Source: Polytrichum commune
Lineage: Eukaryota > Streptophyta > Polytrichopsida > Polytrichales > Polytrichaceae
Direction of reading: 5' to 3'
Length of the DNA: 64,000 nucleotides
Assembly: GCA_950295325.1 (NCBI GenBank)
Contig: OX485808.1
Location: 41,563,180-41,627,179, forward strand
The notes below the pieces were generated by a model. It worked only from the letters and a program-made list of their open reading frames with translations, did no database searches and was not told the DNA's origin. The position numbers were made by a program, and so were the translations under genes. Below are positions 41,086 through 52,995 of the stretch, piece after piece. Position 1 is the first letter of the stretch, and each line of letters begins with the position of its first letter.

Positions 41086-41089
41086 TTAA

Positions 41090-41125
41090 CCCTTAAAAGA
41101 GGTTGCCCCGTTATTGTGGGGGCAA
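41090..41125 (+). repeat. Left terminal inverted repeat and subterminal palindrome of the piggyBac element
   Basis: CCCTTAAAAGAGGTTG directly after TTAA, overlapping a palindrome with 7-bp arms (TTGCCCC 41103-41109, GGGGCAA 41119-41125). Probable transposase binding and cleavage end. Confidence 0.93.
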
Positions 41126-42068
41126 GTAGACGCCCTGTATTTCGCGCACTGGTGCATTTGGGTGCGGATATAGACCGATTCCCTGCACCGAATTTTATGC
41201 AATTTTGTTGGCTTGTGGGCCCCGAAGTGTAGCAGACTTCGGCGAAAGATTCCCACGAAATTGGTCGTGCAGAGAATTATTTGTGAATTTCTAAGTGCCC
41301 GCTGGTGCGGTGGGGTCTGGAAATGGAATACGTATCCATACTGTGTGTATACGGCTTGGGGTGGGGGTGCGCTGATACGGCGGGTGCAAGCGTGGGTGCG
41401 TCCTCTGTGTGCGATGTGGAGTGCGACAGGCAGTCACCCGGTCACTTTGGTAACCGGGGAAACCTGTTTTAGCCTGCAACCACCTTCTGAGGTGACCTCA
41501 TGGGCAAGGAGTGTGTGCCACATGGACGAATGGGGCGCATCCTCTGAAGTGTGGCAGGACATGGGCCCCTGTCCCACGACAGGGGCATCCCAACCGTAAC
41601 TCACAGGCTCCCCGCTGCGGCACGGTGTGTTCCGCTGCGAGGAGTGTGCAAATCCGAGTTCCGAAATTACGGCAATTCTAGTCAGATGTGCGGCATGGAA
41701 CTGTACACATATATAGCAACAATTGCAATTACTTGTCCAAAAATGTTCATACATTCAAAAGCCCGCATACTGTGCGGAAATGTCCAAAATGTGTCTGCGG
41801 GATTGGAGCTCTCAACAACACTCCCACCCAATCCCTATACGAAACCCACCCCCCTGAGAACTATGTACATGATCCACATGATTGTGAAACCAGGTTAGCT
41901 ACAAGTCGGGGAACTAAGTGCGGTCTATGGAAGGAAGGAAATCGACGCTCTGTTCGGGAGTGTAGAAACGGCGGCAACTATCTGTGACGTCCCTCTGGTA
42001 TGCAAATCGCGCTCGTTGTCTCCACGCCATGCCTATCCCTGTTATCGGCAACGAGGACCGTCCGCCGT
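41126..42068. other. Left non-coding part of the piggyBac element
   Basis: GC-richer sequence downstream of the B3 gene. It has short ORFs on both strands with no family features. Probably 3' UTR of the B3 gene and element filler. Confidence 0.5.
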
Positions 42069-43017
42069 TCACACCCTCCTCACCTCGAAGGCCAGCGGAC
42101 CAACCTGCGTGAATTGTACCGTGTCGCCGAGCTTCAATCCGTTGGCGGTGCAGAATCGTGCCCAGCCCTTCGTGAACGAGAAAATCGTCTGCTTGCCAGC
42201 AGTATGCGTGGCTGTCTTCACGGAGCATTGCATCGTCGGGCCGTGTAGGGTGTAAAACACACCATCGAACCCTGCCGCTCCGTGAGTGCGCCAGAACGCT
42301 GTTGGTACATCCTGCGGAAACAGCAAACGATTGAGTCCAGTAATCTTGCGGATGTCCAATCGTGCTTCTCCACGACTCAGCACCGAAGCTGCATGCTGGA
42401 AATACCCTGAACTTCCATACTGTGTGTGCAGATAGAGGAACCAAATAGTACTGTAAATGTGGTAGGGTTTGCACTCACAATTCTGCTGGAGTCAAAATTC
42501 TTCAAGTGCGTCTTCCGAATTGTTTTGCAAAATTGGGGTCGATCGTCACTCTGGACATCGGGGAGCACCTTCGAGTGTCTCCTGTGACCATCGTCATCCT
42601 CGGCAGGCTCGCGCTCACAACCACCCAGCAGCCCGAATTCGACGTCGACCTCCTGTGCCTCCTCGAAGTCTTCGGCAGCGCATCGTTGGTGGTGTGCGAC
42701 CACCAGACGTCGGTCGTCCACGACCTCGAATGTCAGAAACGCTCCGAGGCCAAGATTCTGGTCCAAGACGAACTTCGCCCACCCGCCACCGACGCTCACT
42801 GCCGACCTCCCCGAGCTCACATCAACGAACCTGTGCAGTTTCAGCGGCCACTCCTTCGGCGTGGTGATCGAGGTCACCAGGGCGCATTCCGTTGAGCAAG
42901 GCCAACCTGTCTCCGCTGTGAAGGTAGCAGGAATCTCCTGCGGCATCCCAACCCCATTCGTGAGAATGCACCCAAGGCTGGACCCATCCCCCGATCGGAC
43001 TTCGGGTTCGCTTGCAC
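42069..43017 (-). CDS. Two-B3-domain DNA-binding protein carried by the piggyBac element
   Basis: B3 domains are plant-specific DNA-binding folds (ARF, ABI3/VP1, REM families) acting in the nucleus. Exon 42946-42479 (or from an acceptor at 43017, where no ATG lies between) joins in phase to 42395-42069, giving 264 codons from ATG 42946 with GT-AG borders. Domain 1, about residues 15-90, shows the B3 pattern of a WPLKL strand, GGGWAKFVLDQNLGLGAF and FEVVDDRRLVV. Domain 2, about residues 135-264, shows the sequence FCKTIRKTHL, LLFPQDVPTAFW, LHGPTMQCSV and FTKGWARFCTANGLKLGD, which is a strong B3 match. An acidic linker lies between them. REM-like arrangement. The true 5' end may include exons above 43060. 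A partial second copy lies at 44,099-44,142. Confidence 0.8.
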
Positions 43018-43059
43018 CTACATACGGAAAGGAGCACAAGCTTGGGAGGATCGCGATTT

Positions 43060-43830
43060 CAGGAATTCATACATCCGTCACATACCAGGTAGTGCAGCGA
43101 AGAGGGTGCGAGCAGTGTTAGCGCGAAATACCGGGCGCCCGCTTCGTCAAGCTCGCGCAGCACCTCCAGCGCCAACCATGGATCCGCCATGGCCAGGTAC
43201 GTAAGGATGCTGATAAGGGCTGCAGGTTGTTTGTCCCCGGGGCCCCTTTGCAGCAATCAACTTCGACGTAATCACCTGCGTTATGGTGGAGACACAGAGT
43301 ACCTGCCCAGGGTTAGTGTGATCAAAGTAAGGTGCTGCGACCCGGTTTTGGGAAGCTCTAAGCCATGGTTAACACCGGGGTCGAGGTACTCCTCCAATTG
43401 AGCAGGTGCATTATTACAGAATCGGATCTGGCTTAGGGTCGCCGAGCGTTTCGGGCCACTTCGGCCATCATGGCCTTTTGTATGATGGGCAGAGCATTGA
43501 TGGTGTGTGTGGTAATTATTACGTACCTGGTACAGGCTGGGGGTGCTCGGCGTCACACCATCGTCTTCGGTAAACATCTGAGCTACCTGCCCTGCTACCG
43601 CGAGGATCGGCCCCCAGGAAACACAAAATCTTAGTAAAATTCATCAACAAGTGGCGCACGCCAGGAGCGTGTCTCTTTCGTGTCCTCAATTAAAGCAGGA
43701 GTTGTCATCCTCCTGTTCTCCCTAGGCTCATTCATGTATGGAGTATACCCCACAAACTTCCATCTGTTTGTGCTAAGCGATAGACTGACCATAGGGGAGG
43801 GGACTCCACTAGAGAAGATGGTGGCCACAC
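43060..43830 (-). other. Exon-like segments upstream of the B3 gene
   Basis: Three minus-strand pieces have coding-like composition and end at good donors. One is 43,577-43,530, ending STPSLYQ|GTACGT. One is about 43,470-43,290, containing AQLEEYLDPGVNHGLELPKT and ending at GTACTC. One is about 43,226-43,093, with an acceptor after CCTGCAG, containing DPWLALEVLRELDEAGARYF, and ending at GTATGT. I cannot identify the family or join them in phase to the B3 exon. They may be the 5' exons of that gene or fragments of another captured gene. Confidence 0.4.
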
Positions 43831-44098
43831 CCGATTTCAGAAGTCACTAATTGCGAAATCACCGCTAACACTGCCATCTGTATTGAAGATAATAATTACA
43901 AGTACCGTCTTTAATATCAACACACTCGATCATGTAAGTACTCACATTATGAAGATCCACATGCAATCAGAAGTTATCATTTGCACAGAATGTGCGAAAT
44001 GGGAAACAGATAAATCTCCAATACGGTTCTGTTGATGACATACCTGGGCCTAAATTGAAGCCATTCGAACTCGCCACACTGGAGTATTTCGTCATACC

Positions 44099-44142
44099 TG
44101 TCTCCTGTGACCTTCGTCATCCTCGGCAGGCTCGCGCTCACA
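44099..44142 (-). pseudogene. Partial copy of the B3 gene exon
   Basis: 44 bp identical but for one base to 42576-42619 in the linker of the B3 exon (CEREPAEDD-type sequence). On the minus strand it runs directly into GTATGA, a possible donor. The following sequence includes an exon-like EILQCGEFEWLQFRP piece ending in AG|GTATGTC near 44,045. This points to duplication or recapture of B3 gene material within the element. Confidence 0.65.
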
Positions 44143-44729
44143 GATGACGTCAACAAAACCCTACACCATCCCTGCATTGTTTTCGAGGCCCATTGAAAAT
44201 ATGTGTGGGAATATAATATTAACCATTCATAGCCACGGGGACTTGCTTTCAAGAACGCTCACAAGTCCATTATCTTTTCTCTCAAGAGGGTCAGGAGCAG
44301 TCAAGAACACATATCAATACTTAAACCATCAATAATGGGTGGGAAAAATTGAATATTCATTTCTTTTACAATAATGTACCTAAGATAATATGTTTGACTG
44401 TTCACAGTATTTAATAGCGCTTCAAACAACTTTCCAGACATATGGGCTGATTATATCCAAGGCCATTCGAATCCTGCGGCACACCATATTTTAGCTACTC
44501 ATGTTTCGATCAACTTCTGAGCACAGTGGTTGATGATATGGGTTTCCTTCTTTCAACCAAACTTGTTCTAGCTTTTGAACATTCTTAGCTCCAAAGTTTC
44601 TGAAATTACACAGAGGACAAAAGGTAGCATTCTACAACCATTTGTTCAACAAATAGGGTGGGCACTATAGATCAAAGAGACTGTGATTGCCAGTGTTGGA
44701 ATTTCACCGCACCCTAGCCTCACTGCCGG

Positions 44730-44960
44730 GAAGATTTTTGGGCATCATTGGTCGAAATCGGCGTGTTTTCAAGTCCAACTGGTTACAGGTTGTGATCCTT
44801 CAGTTCTTTACTAATTTGAGGCAAATTCTACAGATTCTCCAAAGACGATAGGTTATTTTCGTGAACTCTTGAACATCAGCAGGTTATTTCTCAAACTCAA
44901 CTGGTTCATCTGTGACTAGCTGTCAGTTCTCCCCGCTCAGTACCTAGGCTACATGCTTGC
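44730..44960 (-). repeat. Inside-element copy of the repeat at 11.3-11.5 kb
   Basis: The minus strand carries GTCACAGATGAACCAGTTGA, then CAACCTGTAACCAGTTGGA and ATGCCCAAAAATCTTCCC, in the same order as 11,300-11,530. Either a repeat inserted into the element or host sequence picked up by it. Confidence 0.7.
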
Positions 44961-45027
44961 AGGTTAGAGGGCATTTTATGCAAAAAAAATGAGTAATTGA
45001 ACTAGGTATTGACCTTCATTGACAAAC

Positions 45028-45160
45028 CTGTATCATCGCAAGTTGTGCAGAGAGAGTTGAAACTTCTGTCTGCATGCCCTGCACTTTGCGTTCGAGTTCC
45101 GAAATTTGAAGCATCTTCCGCTCCTTTGAACGTGCAGCTGATTGGCGGTTGGCCAAAATC
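45028..45160 (-). pseudogene. Captured bZIP exon (group I, VIP1/RF2a-like)
   Basis: A 133-nt open segment with acceptor GATGTAG| at 45161 and donor CAG|GTTTGT at 45028. Its 44 residues begin [15 protein letters not shown], the basic region with the N-x7-R DNA-contact motif and the group-I lysine. They continue into a leucine-zipper start, with ELERKVQ and TLSAQL. The intron positions match those of group-I bZIP genes. I found no N-terminal exon above and no following zipper exon below, so this looks like a single captured exon with its intron borders rather than a whole gene. It could still be spliced into a chimeric transcript. Confidence 0.85.
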
Positions 45161-45661
45161 CTACATCATAACACATCCCATTTGTCAGTTCATTAATCCA
45201 TCACTACATTTTTATGGTTTCTCTTCAACATATAAAACAATCTCCCATTTTCATCAAAGAAGACAATGTGTACCATGTCACTGATTTTCGATCATTCCAC
45301 TTCCCAGACATACTCAATGAGATGACACAATGTAGCATTATATATGAAGGGTCCCACTATTTTAGAACTGTTGAACATAAAATAATGCAGATGTAAGTTC
45401 AAGACAGACCCATACGCACAATTGGGATCAATGAGAGGTATGTGCTTGGCAAACCATGGGCATGCCTTCAGAGTTTAAAAACATAGATCATTACAAGTTT
45501 CATTGCTGCCACTTGGTAACAACGATCTATGGAAAAGGTTCACGTAATCAGACCTCATTGCAACACTCAAGTTTGATGAGAACAATGCTACATACTTGGG
45601 GTGCAACAGAGAAGAAAACAAACCATGTGCACGTCTCCAGATTGTCTTACGTCCTTCACAC

Positions 45662-45714
45662 CGTCCCCTCGTGCATAAGCCGCTCCACCAGGTGGACGTT
45701 GTCCGTCACGCCAA
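45662..45714 (-). other. Small exon-like segment in the element
   Basis: 53 nt between ATTCAG| and |GTGTGA on the minus strand, reading GVTDNVHLVERLMHEGT. Coding-like, but the family is unknown and no partners were found. Low support. Confidence 0.3.
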
Positions 45715-46230
45715 CTGAATGTCCAGGTTGCTCGAGTGATAGTAGATCGTTTCAGATAAAAGAGTGACAACCCGCAGCAAGCACCTGCAAAAATCTCACA
45801 CAATGTGCATACAATTAGAGAATAAACCAATCCCCACAGGTTTCACCAAACAGCGGCCCCAATTTAATCGTCTTGTAAAGAGTGCGAGATGGTCTGCTGG
45901 TATCACATCCATACAACCCGCTCCCGGCCAGGTTGACCTTCACAACCACGCTGGTCTCTTTCGGGATTCGAACGACGTGGCTTACATGTACATTATCTGC
46001 ACAGATATTCCAAGCCCATGGAATGAGTGCTAGGGAGTTATTCACACAGCTAGAGCAGAGACCAATAGCCTTAAAAAATCGTTTTCACAAACCCCATGCC
46101 TGAAGATGCAGCATTTACAATGTTTAGCATTTACAAAATGAGAAGACGGCGTATGTCAGGGTCGCGAGGGTGAGTTCCAAAAATGTATGACAGGGGAAGC
46201 TTGTTTGTTCTCCAAAATAAAGTGGGCCAG

Positions 46231-46480
46231 TCAGTCCACACGCCCCGTGAAGAAGGCCGTCCAGTTGCCACTGGGAGTCCTGAAACGCATCGACGACATT
46301 ATAAAATTCGGCAATTGTTCCCAGACGAGCACAGGTGCCTGTACTCCAACAACTAAGATGGTAGTCAACCTCCTAACCCAGCCTCTACTGCAGATACGAT
46401 TTTTCATGCAAACAGTCTGATGCGGATGACACATCGAATGCCTGCATATGCATTGTTTTCGAGGATACTCAGAGAGATCG
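46231..46480 (-). other. Unidentified minus-strand ORF end within the element
   Basis: Frame ending GNWTAFFTGRVD-stop with a plausible, hydrophobic, aromatic-containing stretch just before it (VQAPVLVWEQLPNFIM). No recognised family and no clear start. It may be a terminal exon of a cargo gene. Confidence 0.25.
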
Positions 46481-46644
46481 ACGGCGGAATTGCGGTGGAG
46501 ATGATTGTCCGCACTGGCTCTTGGCGGAGTCCACGACCACGCCGAGGTCAATTGGCGCTTCGTCGCACATCCGCCGCGAGGCTCCTTCCTGTGACAACAT
46601 CACACTTCTTAGATATGTCAGATTTGCCACAAGCAACCCTCAAA

Positions 46645-49600
46645 CTATAATCTCTCGTGGTGTGCCTGGTAACAGGATTCCGGGCACATCCACTTGTCCC
46701 CACAGGTGGTGCAGAACCACTTTTGCACACGTCCACATATCACACATTGTCGCTTTAATTTGGACCGCCATAGTGTGTGCACAGGGTGAGGGTGTCGATG
46801 TCTACGAGGAAGATGGACTTGCTGTCTTTGGCGGGCCTGTATTGCCTCTGTAGCAAGGTACTTGCCGACGGCGATCTTGAAGGCCAGGTGCGAGGTAACG
46901 GGCAATCCGAGGTCCTCCATTTGCTTGACCCAAGTGACGTAGGAGTTCACCATCGTCTGGTCCACAATGAGGTGAAAAATTTTCACCCACCACTTGTGGC
47001 ACCGAAGCTGCGACGAATAGTTGCCACGGAGCTGATCAGTCACATCGACTCCGCGCATGTACTCGACGTACTGGCGGTGCATGGGTGACGAAGGAACCAC
47101 CAATTGTCCGTGAAGCCCAGGTAATCGTCGAAGCACCTTAGTGTTCGGCTCCCAGGGGGCGGCTGCAGTGCTTAGCAGTGTCACCAGCTTCTTGTCTTGC
47201 CAAGAGACAACGCCCATCTGTCGATGGACGTGATTCCAGATAATCATGGATCCCCTCACAGTGTTGTCAGGTTCCCGGTACAGTCCACCGGGAAGATTCT
47301 TGCTGGTGCGGCGCACAGTACCAGTGGCCCATATTCCCTTGCACATGAGCTCGTGGAAGAGGTTCACACTTGCAAAAAAATTATCGATCACCAAACAGTG
47401 CCCCCGGTTCTCCAGTCCCTTCACCATCCGTTCGACCACATGGTACCCCAAGCCGTGAGGCCCTGCCCCTGTTCCCTCCCCGAAGTACACCTCCATCTGC
47501 CATACGAACCTGCTCTTCGAGCTTGCCAACAACCAAACTTTAATCCCAAACCTTACAGGCTTGTCTGGCATGAATTGCCTAATGAAACAATACCGTCCTT
47601 TGTAGGGGATAACACATTCATCGACAGTTATCTCCCTCTCCAAATTATAAATATCTTTTGAAACGTTAACAAACATTTCAACGAGCCATCTTGTCTTGGC
47701 AATCCTATCAAACAACGGGTCAGACACATCCCTGACTATAGTGTTGTTATCCACTAAATGCAAGCACCGCATGATTTGCTCCCATCTCGAGAGCGTCATG
47801 ATGGACGAGATAAACGGACAATACAAGAAGGGTTGGCTCCGCATCCAGTATTGCCTAACGCTTGGGAGACGTTTACACCCCATGAGTATACAAATCCCCA
47901 ACCACCCCCGGATGTCCGATCGATTCACGTCCTTCCACAACCGTCCACCCTTTGTGCGTGGCAACTCATTTTCCACAGGCGGAAGAACTGCTCTTGCATA
48001 TCTATTGGTCTCAATTACAATTCGATCAATACAGGCATCAGTCCAGTATAAATCAAACACCGCATGTGACAGAGGAATTCCTTCGGGATTAGGGGACTTC
48101 AAACCTGGCGTAGGTCCTGTGAAGTTGTCGCGGGTTCTGACAAAGTCAACACTGGCGGAGTTCCAGGACTCCTTCCTGTAGTATTCTGCAAGCTGGTCAC
48201 TATCCATGTGCACGGGTGTGAATGAATCCGGGGTCATGCACCACCGTTCCAACCCAAGTTGAAAGTTATCAGTTTCATCTAAATTCTCGACATCAAAATC
48301 GGAGTCCGAACTCTCTATGGTATCGCCAAACTCTGGCAGCCACTCGTCGCCACTAGAGTCCGCCGACATCACCCCCATTTCCACACCATCGGCGGAGTGC
48401 ACAGATTTGTTAGAGCACATCATATAATCTGGAAGCCCGAGACTTACCTTTGGAAAAGTGTCCCTGGCAGTCGAGTCCTGCGTACCATCGACCCCCTCAG
48501 TATCGGAGGGGGCATCGTAATCCGTTATGGGGCAGCCTGCTGTTTGTCCGGGCACTACCTGCACATCGATATTTTCAGACACATGCTCTGTTAGCCCAGG
48601 GCCGTTGCCACTCCCTACCTCGCTCGCTGATCCTCCCAAAAGCCCTCCTGCACTCAGTCCTGCGACTGCACCTCCAAACACACCTGCCGAGTCAAGTAGA
48701 GGGCTGAAGCAATGCTGCCTCTTCCACCATCCGCAGCCATGCCCCCCTTCGCTTCCGTATGCGCGTACGTGCGGCCCATCAGCAACTCTAACGCTCTCCT
48801 CGTTCAGGTGGCATTCCGTATCGTACCCCCCCAGGTCACACAACACCATCCTGTTCCCTGTAGCGGCGTGCACACCCTCCCCGATGACATCCCCTTGTGT
48901 CCAAGATGGAGTGTCGCCAGTGTGGAAGGAATGCTCCGAGAGAAATCGATTCGGCACAAGTACAGCCCACCCAGCCCTCCTACAACTCCACTGCACATAC
49001 GTGCCTTGGAAGCGGTCTGGCATAACACCCACCTCAAGAAGCACTGGCCTCTCCAACGATCCGCCTGGATGTGTGGCTCCGAAGCCCGTGTGTTTTGAAA
49101 TAGGCGCTGATGTCCTCCAAGCGTCGTCGAGAAATACTGACTCCCAAAGGTTGACATTTATGGTGTCCATGCTGCCAACGGAATGCTGCCCTTCAGGCGC
49201 GACAAAGTCTTCCAGGCCCTCATACCCTCCGTAATCGGCCAACACCTCGCAGATGGCATCGTCGTTCAGCAATTGTTGTTCATACTCTGCAGCTTGTATC
49301 GCCAAACCCCGCGTGCACACTCCGTCGGTGATGTTAGGGTGGAGTGTTGGAGGCATCCACGCACGAGGCCTCCGAGGCTTGGAACGCACCAATTTACCTT
49401 TTTCCTCCCTGGTATGCTTTCCACTTGCCGCCCGCTGCCCACCTGTGCAGCCACAGCCAGTGTCAGGAGAGCACCAATTACACATTCATACATTCACGAC
49501 CATGGCCACCTGGAGTATGTCTGCAGGAAACTCATTCATGCCTGGAGTATATCAACAACAACTCACCACGTTGGCGCGCCGGCGTCGACTCAGGGGGCGG

Positions 49601-50095
49601 AGGTCCGAACTCGTTTCCAACATCGCTCTGTGGCATGGGGGTCTGCAGCATGGTCGTCAGATCCACCAATCCGCACTCCACTGTGGCCTGCTTCGTCGAT
49701 ACCGATGTCCTTTGAGGTCTTGGCGTAGTCTCCCCCACCCCTGCAAACGCCTTCCCCTGCCGTTCCTTCCTCAGCCGTTTGAAGCTGGTCCTGGCCTGCG
49801 TGAAGCGGGGCTGCGTGCACTGGGCGAGATCGACGTCCTGCGACGCATCCGCTACGTGAACCTGCAGCAACGGAGACGGGGCCACCTGCACAGGCAGTCA
49901 GCAGGAGCACGCAACCAACGACAATGATCTCAGTGTGTGGATGGCATCGTAACCTTACAGACTGTGATTGCTATCTGCTGTGAAACAACTATCTCAGTCA
50001 AGGAAGTGGGTACTTACCTTCTTCGCCCTTGCCTTCCGAGGATGTTTTGGGTTCGGTGCTGGGTCCAAATTCTCCTTGCCACCTTCCTGCTCCAT
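46645..50095 (-). CDS. piggyBac transposase (3 exons, about 1064 aa)
   Basis: A DDE/D cut-and-paste transposase. Exons 50095-50018, 49885-49567 and 49442-46645 join in phase with AG/GT borders. The large ORF that seems to begin at 49485 is preceded by an in-frame TGA, and its first 14 codons are intronic. In the spliced protein, residues 1-133 are basic and Pro-rich, followed by an acidic Asp/Ser-rich region. The DDE_Tnp_1_7 core follows from about residue 585. The catalytic aspartates are conserved: D740 (ITVDECVIPYKGR), D819 (VIDNFFAS), D932 and D935 (GVDVTDQL). The C-terminus (about 1032-1061) has CxxC..CxxC..C..C..HH spacing, the cysteine-rich zinc module that binds piggyBac ends. It is nearly twice the length of the insect enzyme because of the N-terminal extension. 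No stop or frameshift interrupts it. Confidence 0.95.
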
Positions 50096-50099
50096 CCCG

Positions 50100-50550
50100 C
50101 TCGCATACAACCCCCCCTGCAAGGTGCACCATGACGAATCAGTCTAGAAACGTCCCAGGTGCCCCCCAGTGATTTCAGCCACCACAGAGCAAGCTGCGGA
50201 CTGTGTGCACTGAAGGTGCACAGCAAATGCTATAGGGATTGGTAGACACTACCTTGGTCTGCCGAGGCCGTCTCGTCCTCAGTGTTGGACCTCTGCTCTC
50301 CGGAGCCGTGAGAGGAAGGCATACTTCCACCTGCGATATCTCCTGGCCACCAATTTCAATCCGGGAAAGAGTCAGATTGACCATCGGACGCCCATCCCCA
50401 ACAACAAAAATAAAGTGCTCCAATCTCAAGTCTAACACACATGAGTTGACATACCAGACTTTGGTTTCAATGTTTGATAGGTGCAAGATACCCACATTCG
50501 AAATTTGCTCCGGATTAATCGTGAACAAATTATTAGGAACGACATGGAAT
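50100..50550. other. Region upstream of the transposase start
   Basis: The in-frame stop TAG lies upstream of ATG 50095, near 50,140, so the start is well defined. A run of seven C sits just upstream of it. Short ORFs here are not convincing. Presumed promoter and 5' UTR. Confidence 0.45.
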
Positions 50551-51640
50551 CAGCATAGTAAACACCTAGCCGCGTGAAGGGCTTATAATGCAGATGTATC
50601 TTGGTGGCGATAGATTTTGTGGCAGGTCTACTTGTCCTGGACTATAAAACTTGGCAATAGTGTGATCTGGTTAGCAAATCTGCCCAGCAGGTTGGAGCAG
50701 TGACCTGTTTCCTCAAAAAATTCAGAGACATTAGGGAAAAATCATGCCGCGGCACAAATTGAGGACACGGGCAGCATAGTAAACTGCTATCCCTTACACA
50801 GACTTGTGGTAGCACAACACCTGGTCTAGGTTGAAATAACCACAGGAGCATAAAGACCAGAGCGTAAAGCCAGTTTTTATCAACATGCGGTTGCCATTCG
50901 CTTCAGCAGAGTGGATGTGCAGGAAGGTTCCAGATGTTTCAGCCGACATTCAGGTTCACTGAAATACAATGTTGGAGGTACACTAATCCAAACCCTGAAC
51001 TGCTCCACAATGTCTATTTGAAGGCCTCTAAAATGGCCAAAAGACCCTTTGTGGTCATCAAGACCAAGAAGTATGTGCGGCATCAATGAAAAAAAACCCT
51101 CAAGGGAACACCTAATACCCCGGGAGGAATCAGCATAGTAAACATCCAAAACCGTGAAGGGGTTAATAATGCAGATGTGTCTTGGCGGCGATAGATTTTC
51201 AGATGTGTCCTGCTGGCTCAAAAAACTCAGAGCCAGTATGGAAAAATCATGCCGCGGCACAAATTGAGGACACCGGCTCTCACTAAACTGCTATCCCTTA
51301 CACAAACCTGTGTCACCTAAACATCTGGTCTAGGTTGAAATCACCACAGGAGCATAAAGACCAGAGCGTAAAGGCAGTTTTTATAAACATGCGGTTGCCA
51401 ATCGATCCAGCAGAGTGGATGTGCAGGTCGCTCTTGGAAGTCCCAGCCAACATTCAGGTTCACTGAAACACAATGTTTATCGGCACACTAATCCAAACCC
51501 TGAACTGCTCCACGATGTCTTTTTGCAAGTGATTTCCCAAATGGCCGAAAGACCCTTTGTGGTCATCAACACCAGGAAGCATGTGCGGCATCAACGGGAA
51601 AAAAACCCTCAAGGGAACACCTAATACCCCGGGAGGAATC
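50551..51640 (+). repeat. Tandem duplication (580 + 510 bp) inside the piggyBac element
   Basis: Copy 1 is 50551-51130 and copy 2 is 51131-51640. Both start CAGCATAGTAAACA, share AAATCATGCCGCGGCACAAA and CCAGAGCGTAAAG, and end CCTAATACCCCGGGAGGAAT. Copy 2 lacks about 70 bp near its start. No ORF is preserved in the same state in both copies. Confidence 0.9.
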
Positions 51641-51864
51641 ACAACATGTGACAAAGAACCACAGAGTACTCCACAAAGATCCGGCCACATCCCCTTGTAA
51701 ATGTGGATCCTTTAATTCGAATTCTCGGCAACATCCGTTGGCAATGTAGGCCAATAGGGTCGCTCACACCGAGCGAGAATGCACATCGAAATACTATAAG
51801 CGAACAGTTACTCAACGTCGAGACCCGCTAGCCTAACACCAGCAAATTATTGCAACAACAAACC

Positions 51865-52458
51865 CTAAGCAACCACGCACAAATTGGGAGACGGGGCATG
51901 GTGTGTCCAAGTGCAGGAAGACGAACCTGCGGAGTGATGATGGGCGTCGATGGCGCGCGATCCCGCATTTGCACCGGCTGTGACCCTCCCCGGGCCATCC
52001 GCGCGAGGCGCTTCATGCCTCACACCCAGCGTGGGGAAAACGTGCCCACGTAGAAGGCTAGTCACAATTTCGGGGAACCTCCGGCGCTCACACCAACCCA
52101 AAATCCGCGCCGCGTGCCTGTACCAGAGATAGCGGCACCGCTCTTGCACTCCAAATTGTCCTCTCCGATTCCAGCTGCTGGGGCGTGGCTGCGCAAGGAG
52201 TGAGGATGCATCCAGGAGCTGCACCGCCCGTGCCGCGCCGACCTCAGAAACCCCTTGCCTGTTGAACCAATTTCGCAATTCAGACTCCAACAAAATGCGC
52301 TCTGCGCTCGCCGAGTCGCTGCCCCTCTCCATGTATACGCGCCAGAGCGCGGTGTGCCTTCCTTGGATATGCAAGCACGGATCCGCAAACGAGTTTGAAA
52401 ATGGGTGAAGGACAATCCGCCCAAAACAAAACCTGTTGTTGCGAATCCGGGACACCAT
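51865..52458 (-). CDS. Unknown protein at the right end of the element (197 codons)
   Basis: Open frame from ATG 52458 (MVSRIRNNRF) to a stop at 51865, on the same strand as the transposase. The middle (about residues 40-150) looks protein-like and Trp/Arg-rich, with ELRNWFNRQGVSEVGAARAV, RYLWYRHAARILGWCERRRF and EIVTSLLRGHVF. The C-terminal 50 residues look random and may be intronic, with a possible donor CCGCAG|GTTCGT near 51,930. A telo-box lies about 125 bp upstream. Family not recognised. It could be a captured host gene piece or an accessory ORF. Confidence 0.5.
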   Translation of the reverse strand: MVSRIRNNRFCFGRIVLHPFSNSFADPCLHIQGRHTALWRVYMERGSDSASAERILLESELRNWFNRQGVSEVGAARAVQLLDASSLLAQPRPSSWNRRGQFGVQERCRYLWYRHAARILGWCERRRFPEIVTSLLRGHVFPTLGVRHEAPRADGPGRVTAGANAGSRAIDAHHHSAGSSSCTWTHHAPSPNLCVVA

Positions 52459-52581
52459 TTTCCCCCTCAAGGCCAACCCAGTACCACAGACGTGGTCGTC
52501 GCAATCGCAAGCGCCTGTCTATCATGTCCAAATCGCCGGCGCCACGACGTCCTTAGGCCACTCAACAAAAGATGATGATCT

Positions 52582-52597
52582 CCCTAAACCCTAAACC
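52582..52597 (-). promoter_or_regulatory. Double telo-box upstream of the 197-codon ORF
   Basis: CCCTAAACCCTAAACC on the plus strand (GGTTTAGGGTTTAGGG on the minus), 125 bp before ATG 52458. This is a frequent plant promoter element, supporting a minus-strand transcription unit starting near the right end of the element. Confidence 0.5.
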
Positions 52598-52959
52598 TGG
52601 AGTGGAGAAGGTGGAGGGCGAAGCGAAAGCGGGGGAATGCCCTCGCGATTCCTTTGCCACACGAGCGTGTCCTCCCAACGACACTGACCGGACGAGGCGG
52701 TCACCAACGGCCATTTGAAATTACGCCGCGTCACCACGAGGACCGTCCCCGCTCAGCTTCCACGTCTACCGTATTCTGAAGGAATACGTATGCGTACACA
52801 GAAGTCGCACTTATCTCGTCCCCGACATCGCCAGACAGCTCCAAAAATTAGATGGAAAATCCCACAAGTTGCATTTAGGTATTGCCGACATATCCGTAGT
52901 TCGGAGACACGCCAGACTCGGTGAAGATAGGTCATCAGCAAGTGCCTAACCCTGACCGT

Positions 52960-52991
52960 AGGCCATATTGGCCTTCAACCTCTTTTAAGGG
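52960..52991 (-). repeat. Right terminal inverted repeat and subterminal palindrome of the piggyBac element
   Basis: CAACCTCTTTTAAGGG directly before TTAA, the exact inverse of the left end. Just inside lies the AGGCCATATTGGCCT palindrome (52960-52974). Confidence 0.93.
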
Positions 52992-52995
52992 TTAA

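Follow-up and report, generated by a model that had tools for sequence, protein, structure and literature searches.

A family of large piggyBac transposons with a predicted B3 gene in the moss Polytrichum commune

The moss element and its described relatives

Transposons of the piggyBac superfamily move by cut-and-paste at TTAA, with precise excision through hairpins formed there, and are bounded by short terminal inverted repeats (TIRs) with 5'-CCC after the TTAA. Here we analyze an element of this kind in the moss Polytrichum commune, found within a stretch of 64,000 nucleotides (nt) that we call the window (C6:41563180-41627179; coordinates without a contig prefix are positions in it). Judged from its sequence, the element very probably belongs to a multi-copy family of large piggyBac transposons with a B3 gene, within which it is a recently active and potentially autonomous copy. 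Like the superfamily members closest to it, piggyBat (9c0f) and 6x67, which we take to be moth piggyBac, it has the TTAA target and its duplication, short TIRs with CCC, a DDE_Tnp_1_7 domain with aligned Asp residues and possibly a Cys-rich C-terminus. Unlike them, the moss element is predicted to encode its transposase in five exons, the protein being much extended at its N-terminus, and its family adds the B3 gene and a small overlapping open reading frame (ORF), the transposase-bearing pairs of ends measuring 7.5-16.7 kb or, in one case, 33.3 kb.

Other plant transposons combine a transposase with a second gene, as the moss element does. In En/Spm (TNPA/TNPD) and MuDR (mudrA/mudrB), both two-gene elements of plants, the transposase is unrelated and the second gene is not known to encode a B3 protein, and the VANDAL transposase likewise belongs to another superfamily than piggyBac. 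VANDAL resembles the moss family in being a DNA transposon of plants that carries an accessory gene. The accessory VANC proteins of Arabidopsis VANDAL elements counteract silencing and bind noncoding parts of the elements, according to two papers (PMC5735166, PMC10398659). Systems of the VANC type are marked by target motifs clustered in noncoding ends and by reduced DNA methylation of the elements targeted. By analogy, the moss B3 protein would be expected to bind noncoding parts of its element; the accessory protein here is of the B3 type, however, and tandem target repeats like those of VANDAL were not seen in the moss ends. A 2022 review of transposable elements in land plants cites MuDR, CACTA and PIF/Harbinger as TIR elements in which further coding sequences occur and, in the section concerned, names six TIR superfamilies, piggyBac not among them (PMC9033089). 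An oversized piggyBac is known from medaka, where Teratorn is summarized as a 180-kb fusion of piggyBac with a herpesvirus (PMC10175614). The moss element is about fifteen times smaller, and a Pfam scan limited to five ORFs of the window, the small ORF and the B3 protein as spliced gave no viral family.

The occurrence of piggyBac in plants is, as such, already in print. A table in PMC4438587 has PiggyBac among the superfamilies found in all taxonomic groups studied, piggyBac is said to have been isolated from plants (PMC10813416), and PiggyBac-like elements are said to occur in them (PMC8086355), the passages concerned naming piggyBac without describing an element. PiggyBac pieces have been tabulated for a fern (1,230, totalling 122 kb) and for a grass (a single one of 75 bp). 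Two further papers were discarded as sources for plant piggyBac (in PMC10619864 the word is piggybacking, in PMC8448359 the match is a reference title). Neither a moss piggyBac nor a piggyBac with B3 is described among the matches listed from the open-licence literature, where longer lists could hide one, and among the same matches the design with two genes, transposase and B3, was not found described for piggyBac.

Ends, transposase and recent movement

The element is delimited by the following features:

41086..52995, no strand: complete piggyBac element of 11,910 bp, both TTAA counted
41086..41105, plus strand: left TTAA (41086-41089) and 16-bp TIR CCCTTAAAAGAGGTTG
52976..52995, minus strand: right 16-bp TIR and TTAA (52992-52995)
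52961..52973, minus strand: right subterminal palindrome GGCCAATATGGCC, with the core GCCAAnnTGGCC followed by TACGGT in 14 of the 14 right ends compared

The sequence TTAACCCTTAAAAGAGGTTG at 41086-41105 returns as its exact reverse complement at 52976-52995, so that each end consists of TTAA and a TIR that starts with CCC right after it, as in other piggyBac elements, and is perfect over 16 bp. Beyond the TIR the two ends differ from each other. The G+C content (500-bp windows) rises at the left border from 0.36 outside to 0.55 inside, falls at the right border from 0.54 inside to 0.40 outside, and is 0.51 in the element as a whole vs 0.39 in the remainder of the window. An earlier note, made from the letters of the window alone, had pointed out the TTAA on both sides, the perfect 16-bp TIRs 11.9 kb apart and the change of composition at the borders, all of which we confirm. 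It had also described subterminal palindromes at both ends; the right one stands, its core being present in all 14 copies, whereas the left one is not conserved among the 14 copies whose ends were compared.

The ends recur in the genome (408 Mb in 64 contigs were searched), the search for them being a check that the note had proposed. Allowing up to two mismatches, the 20-mer of the end is found at 49 sites, 25 of them forward and 24 reverse, vs 3 for a reversed control pattern, and the 49 form 17 facing TIR pairs within 40 kb, 0.85 to 33.3 kb in size, with 15 sites unpaired; because of this excess over the control and of the facing pairs, the recurrence is not due to chance. A transposase match is held by 13 of the 17 pairs, a B3 match by 13 and both by 11, and none of the 118 PF13843 rows of the genome search falls in the four pairs other than the transposase-bearing ones. 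Fourteen copies including that of the window were read, the pairs at C1:5577513, C2:67124892 and C7:6704738 not being read whole; TTAA stands at both ends in 14 of 14, a result that is partly circular, since TTAA was part of the pattern searched for.

The transposase ORF (49485-46645, minus strand) encodes 946 amino acids (aa) with no internal stop and matches PF13843 (DDE_Tnp_1_7) with an E-value (E) of 2.3e-69 (234.8 bits, cut-off 22.4). Comparison with the PDB returned two sequences, 9c0f (E 7e-32), a piggyBat transposase by name, and 6x67 (E 2.2e-22), called simply Transposase. The catalytic Asp residues of the superfamily align with both, at codons 47622-47620, 47385-47383, 47046-47044 and 47037-47035, in agreement with the uninterrupted transposase with catalytic Asp residues of the earlier note. 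The C-terminal end, CVICGRVQKWFCTTCGDKWMCPESCYQAHH, is Cys-rich by eye, and Pfam, at E up to 0.1, reported PF13843 alone. Relatives of the transposase (to 91%) are present in other public sequence. The 946-aa ORF is probably not the whole transposase, since predicted splice sites add four upstream exons; starting from a conserved ATG and using conserved donors and acceptors, a protein of 1,119 aa is predicted from five exons. For this gene and for the B3 gene, splice sites were predicted from conservation among the copies only:

51927..52016, minus strand: predicted transposase exon 1, starting ATGAA[G/A]CG in the 10 copies compared, with a GT donor
50253..50330, minus strand: predicted exon 2, the least certain; the acceptor AG is not in every copy, and it shows no clear codon-like pattern
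50018..50116, minus strand: predicted exon 3
49567..49861, minus strand: predicted exon 4
46645..49442, minus strand: last exon, with an N-terminal region containing a beta-barrel in the model, the DDE_Tnp_1_7 core and the Cys-rich end

The prediction at exons 3 and 4 is supported because three copies (C3_28.56, C2_24.04 and C4_24.1) have no third intron and keep the frame, exon 3 running into exon 4. In pairwise comparison with the window copy, the ratio of nonsynonymous to synonymous substitution rates (dN/dS) is 0.06-0.12 for the core (9 copies) and 0.10-0.19 for the N-terminal part of the last exon (8 copies; in a ninth, covering 78 codons, dS is saturated). The spliced 1,119-aa transposase would excise the element at TTAA and reinsert it elsewhere.

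Evidence for recent movement comes from a sister copy of 3,924 bp, C6:37908946-37912869, on the same contig as the window copy and 3.7 Mb from it. It keeps 41086-42760 and 50906-52995 of the element and lacks what lies between:

42761..50905, no strand: stretch absent from the 3.9-kb sister

Over the first 1,675 bp the two copies are 100% identical, and over the last 2,090 bp there is one difference (3,764 of 3,765 aligned bases). At the junction the sister has 159 bp of scrambled filler with repeats of a short motif present at the right breakpoint, and filler of this kind is the typical residue of interrupted, slipping repair synthesis. The deletion may thus have arisen when gap repair was interrupted and slipped on its template, leaving the filler, and the deleted sister would have been moved by transposase supplied in trans. 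When the flanks of the sister are joined with one TTAA, C3:27781503-27781906 and C5:45259511-45259914 match at 100% and C7:22851082-22851480 at 99% across the junction. With flanks of 1 kb, the C3 site aligns over 2,004 bases without a gap (99.8%), the C5 site over 1,418 bases (99.7%) and the C7 site over 1,199 bases (99.7%). Each of the three empty sites has a single TTAA at the junction, which is the pattern left by duplication of a TTAA target. Because of the near-identical sister and of its empty sites with one TTAA, we conclude that the lineage moved very recently, and did so as a piggyBac. The intact, young piggyBac in a land plant that the earlier note had proposed, above the 2-3 kb it gave for such elements, is upheld (11,910 bp, with a near-identical sister).

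The B3 gene and the descent of the two halves

In the alignment of copies, codon-like change is also seen outside the transposase, in a predicted B3 gene on the minus strand:

43086..43190, minus strand: predicted B3 exon 1, ATG at 43190
42479..42937, minus strand: predicted B3 exon 2, rest of the first B3 domain, linker and start of the second
42069..42311, minus strand: predicted B3 exon 3, rest of the second B3 domain, stop at 42069

Its donors and acceptors are conserved in most copies, the three exons are all in phase 0, and the product is open over 268 aa, with PF02362 matching the spliced protein in two stretches (E 1.3e-18), i.e., two B3 domains. The gene is intact in the window copy, and among the copies read all three exons are present in 7 others; in C4_27.16 no more than exon 3 is present, and the sister lacks the 5' part. 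Of 41 matches to the B3 protein in the genome, 39 lie in 16 places, namely 13 TIR pairs and the neighborhood (within about 2 kb) of 3 of the 15 unpaired ends. The remaining two, at C1:55.94 Mb, are weak (E 7e-4, 38% identity), and the whole-genome search gave no better match outside element ends. Pairwise dN/dS of the B3 exons against the window copy is 0.21-0.51, and 39-48% of the amino acids of exon 2 differ from the window copy in 8 copies. Most pairs of the family thus carry a second, selected gene, for a predicted protein with two B3 domains. Because 13 of the 17 pairs are matched and 39 of the 41 matches lie in pairs or beside unpaired ends, this is an element gene of long standing and not a recent capture. 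Relatives of the B3 protein (to 66%) are present in other public sequence; none of the 66 database relatives at E up to 0.001 bears a plant gene name. The transposase relative P0010 and the B3 relative P0222, both on contigs with a length of 9,952, give a hint, no more, that the two genes stand together elsewhere.

Trees of the transposase, the right end, the B3 gene and the left end of 8 copies were compared by the approximately unbiased (AU) test. The transposase and the right end support one tree, the B3 gene and the left end another. The B3 and left-end trees are rejected by the transposase data (p below 1e-47) and by the right-end data (p 1.6e-6); conversely, the transposase and right-end trees are rejected by the B3 data (p below 1e-50) and by the left-end data (p 0.006). 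Because the trees differ in the placement of one copy alone, C2:62694345-62706802, whose left half (left end and B3) has other relatives than its right half (transposase and right end), a single exchange of modules explains the conflict.

A third protein is probably made from a small overlapping ORF, and it could come from the same message as the transposase:

51865..52332, minus strand: small upstream ORF with its ATG at 52332 and 'MERG' following the first residues, overlapping the transposase start in another frame

Its first 105 codons (to 52018) have dN/dS of 0.17-0.51 against 10 copies, one of them covered over 52 codons only, with one stop in each of two copies. The core QERCRYLWYRHAARILGW is almost invariant across the aligned copies.

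Other parts of the element vary. Stretches at about 43.5-45.8 kb and 50.5-51.6 kb of the window are variable from copy to copy, with no named gene among them, so that constancy of the cargo, which the earlier note had proposed to examine, applies to B3 (13 of 17 pairs) and not to these stretches. A tandem duplication sits in the predicted first intron of the transposase, in sequence with little counterpart in other copies:

50546..51641, no strand: tandem duplication whose copies lie about 505-580 bp from each other, with 83-100% identity between pieces

In a 90-bp segment outside the genes described (45856-45945), substitutions look codon-like, at a low depth of 3.6 copies. Among the other pairs, that of 33.3 kb (C7:6704738-6738012) carries transposase and B3; a 6.5-kb piece of it has the transposase and a further ORF, and the transposase part alone matches the window element. 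Nested insertions may account for its size. An 18.3-kb TIR pair, C3:14616666-14634982, has B3 exons (with one stop) and no transposase match, and may depend on other copies. The genome also contains a second piggyBac family, at about C2:7054196-7060175, where a transposase frame of 564 aa lies within 5,980 bp bounded by TTAA and the TIRs agree at 15 of 16 bases. Five places of this family show 98-99.9% identity in the main stretches that were compared; the genome search for B3 gave no match there (C2:7053057-7063220). The plastid-type matK of this genome, on contig C8, is 97% identical to one database protein and, among the named proteins in the best 120 of 141 matches, comes nearest to Dawsonia (89%) and then to Oedipodium (75%); Dawsonia being a member of the Polytrichales, the host is most likely a moss of this order. 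Further matches to matK occur in large contigs, at C1:44839401-44840231 (where stops are numerous and plastid DNA has perhaps been transferred to the nucleus) and at three weaker places.

Origin and possible role of the B3 gene

A segmental duplication or an assembly artefact, instead of a transposon, might be suspected from two near-identical copies 3.7 Mb apart on one contig and from the longest flanking sequence shared by any copies, a stretch of 262 bp to the left of C6_37.9 and C7_20.35 with 69% identity. The flanks of 12 copies (1 kb each, one 1.5 kb) are otherwise unrelated, however, sharing only short or weak repeats such as one of 144 bp (88%) that lies well to the right of C4_27.16 and C7_20.35; homologous flanks, which the earlier note had named as the finding that would speak against an element, are not what we see. 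The 262-bp stretch lies at about equal distance from its two copies, whose right flanks are unlike, and the last bases before the TTAA are alike at C6:37908946 and C7:20353423; these are perhaps two insertions at like places of one host repeat family. With the internal deletion and filler of the sister, and above all with the empty sites with one TTAA, which refute it, duplication has practically no probability left. It is also very improbable that we are dealing with an ordinary piggyBac that picked up a fragment of a host B3 transcription factor as cargo. B3 domains are typical of plants, so that the B3 of the element must once have come from a host, and the two weak matches at C1:55.94 Mb do lie outside elements. 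Nevertheless, the presence of B3 in 13 of the 17 pairs, with three exons in 7 other copies and under purifying selection, and the lack of a close B3 copy outside element ends do not fit a passenger, and the earlier note's transport of host transcription-factor sequence is not sustained. For the same reasons, the same gene in 13 of 17 pairs without a close host parent, a Pack-type element with a captured host gene was rejected.

A long-standing gene could still be kept for the moss and not for the transposon, as the selection signature alone is silent on whose benefit it reflects. That B3 is such a hitchhiker seems unlikely to us, as no strong B3 match is found outside the elements and the large divergence of exon 2 fits a contest between element and host better. 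A role for B3 as an accessory of transposition, binding the left end and helping the transposase to pair asymmetric ends, with no part in expression or silencing, deserves more weight, although we would not expect it: the ends are unlike beyond the TIR, B3 tracks the left end and the transposase tracks the right one, yet the exchange in C2_62.69 joins a left module to another right module, which shows that B3 and transposase are not tightly matched, and transposase-bearing pairs without a B3 match exist. Because of its constancy, the selection on it, its quick change and its place, we infer that B3 acts on the element itself; that it binds the noncoding left end, beside its own gene, and regulates or de-silences the element, like the accessory proteins of some other plant DNA transposons, is about an even chance. 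Anti-silencing, activation and help in the pairing of ends are all compatible with what the sequences tell us.

Several observations weigh against an autonomous, recently active element whose B3 protein acts on its own left end. The window copy has no empty-site paralogue, its own flanks being single-copy in the genome, so that the empty TTAA site sought by the earlier note was found for the sister (at three places) and not for this copy. Transposase exons 1-4 are less constrained (dN/dS 0.28-0.61) and have a single stop in each of 2 of 9 copies, the core has a single stop in 4 of 9, and the prediction of exon 2 is weak. The B3 exons of C3_28.56 and of C3_14.6 contain a single stop each. Moreover, because the transposase-bearing pairs C7:20353423 and C2:67124892 have no B3 match, B3 is not strictly required for persistence. 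The joint inheritance of B3 and the left end may be mere physical linkage, and neither end has a clear repeated target motif: the best 6-mers occur at least 3 times in 6 of 11 ends, vs maxima of 5 (left) and 4 (right) in 60 shuffles, a marginal signal, and no clustered 7- or 8-mers were found in the same comparison.

Possibly, then, mosses harbor a piggyBac lineage in which a plant B3 protein became the element's own sequence-specific factor for anti-silencing or activation. The noncoding left end would form with B3 a fast-changing module that can be exchanged against the module of transposase and right end, and the arrangement would resemble that of VANC in VANDAL while being built independently, with a different transposase superfamily and a different DNA-binding domain as its parts; we offer this as a tentative proposal, with somewhat less than even confidence. 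In any event, an intact and recently moved moss piggyBac, together with the empty sites of its sister, provides researchers with a candidate for a piggyBac native to plants. Moreover, a transposon gene that derives its DNA-binding domain from plants, changes fast and is inherited with one end would offer a system for questions of control between transposon and host, and such questions can be tested in mosses.

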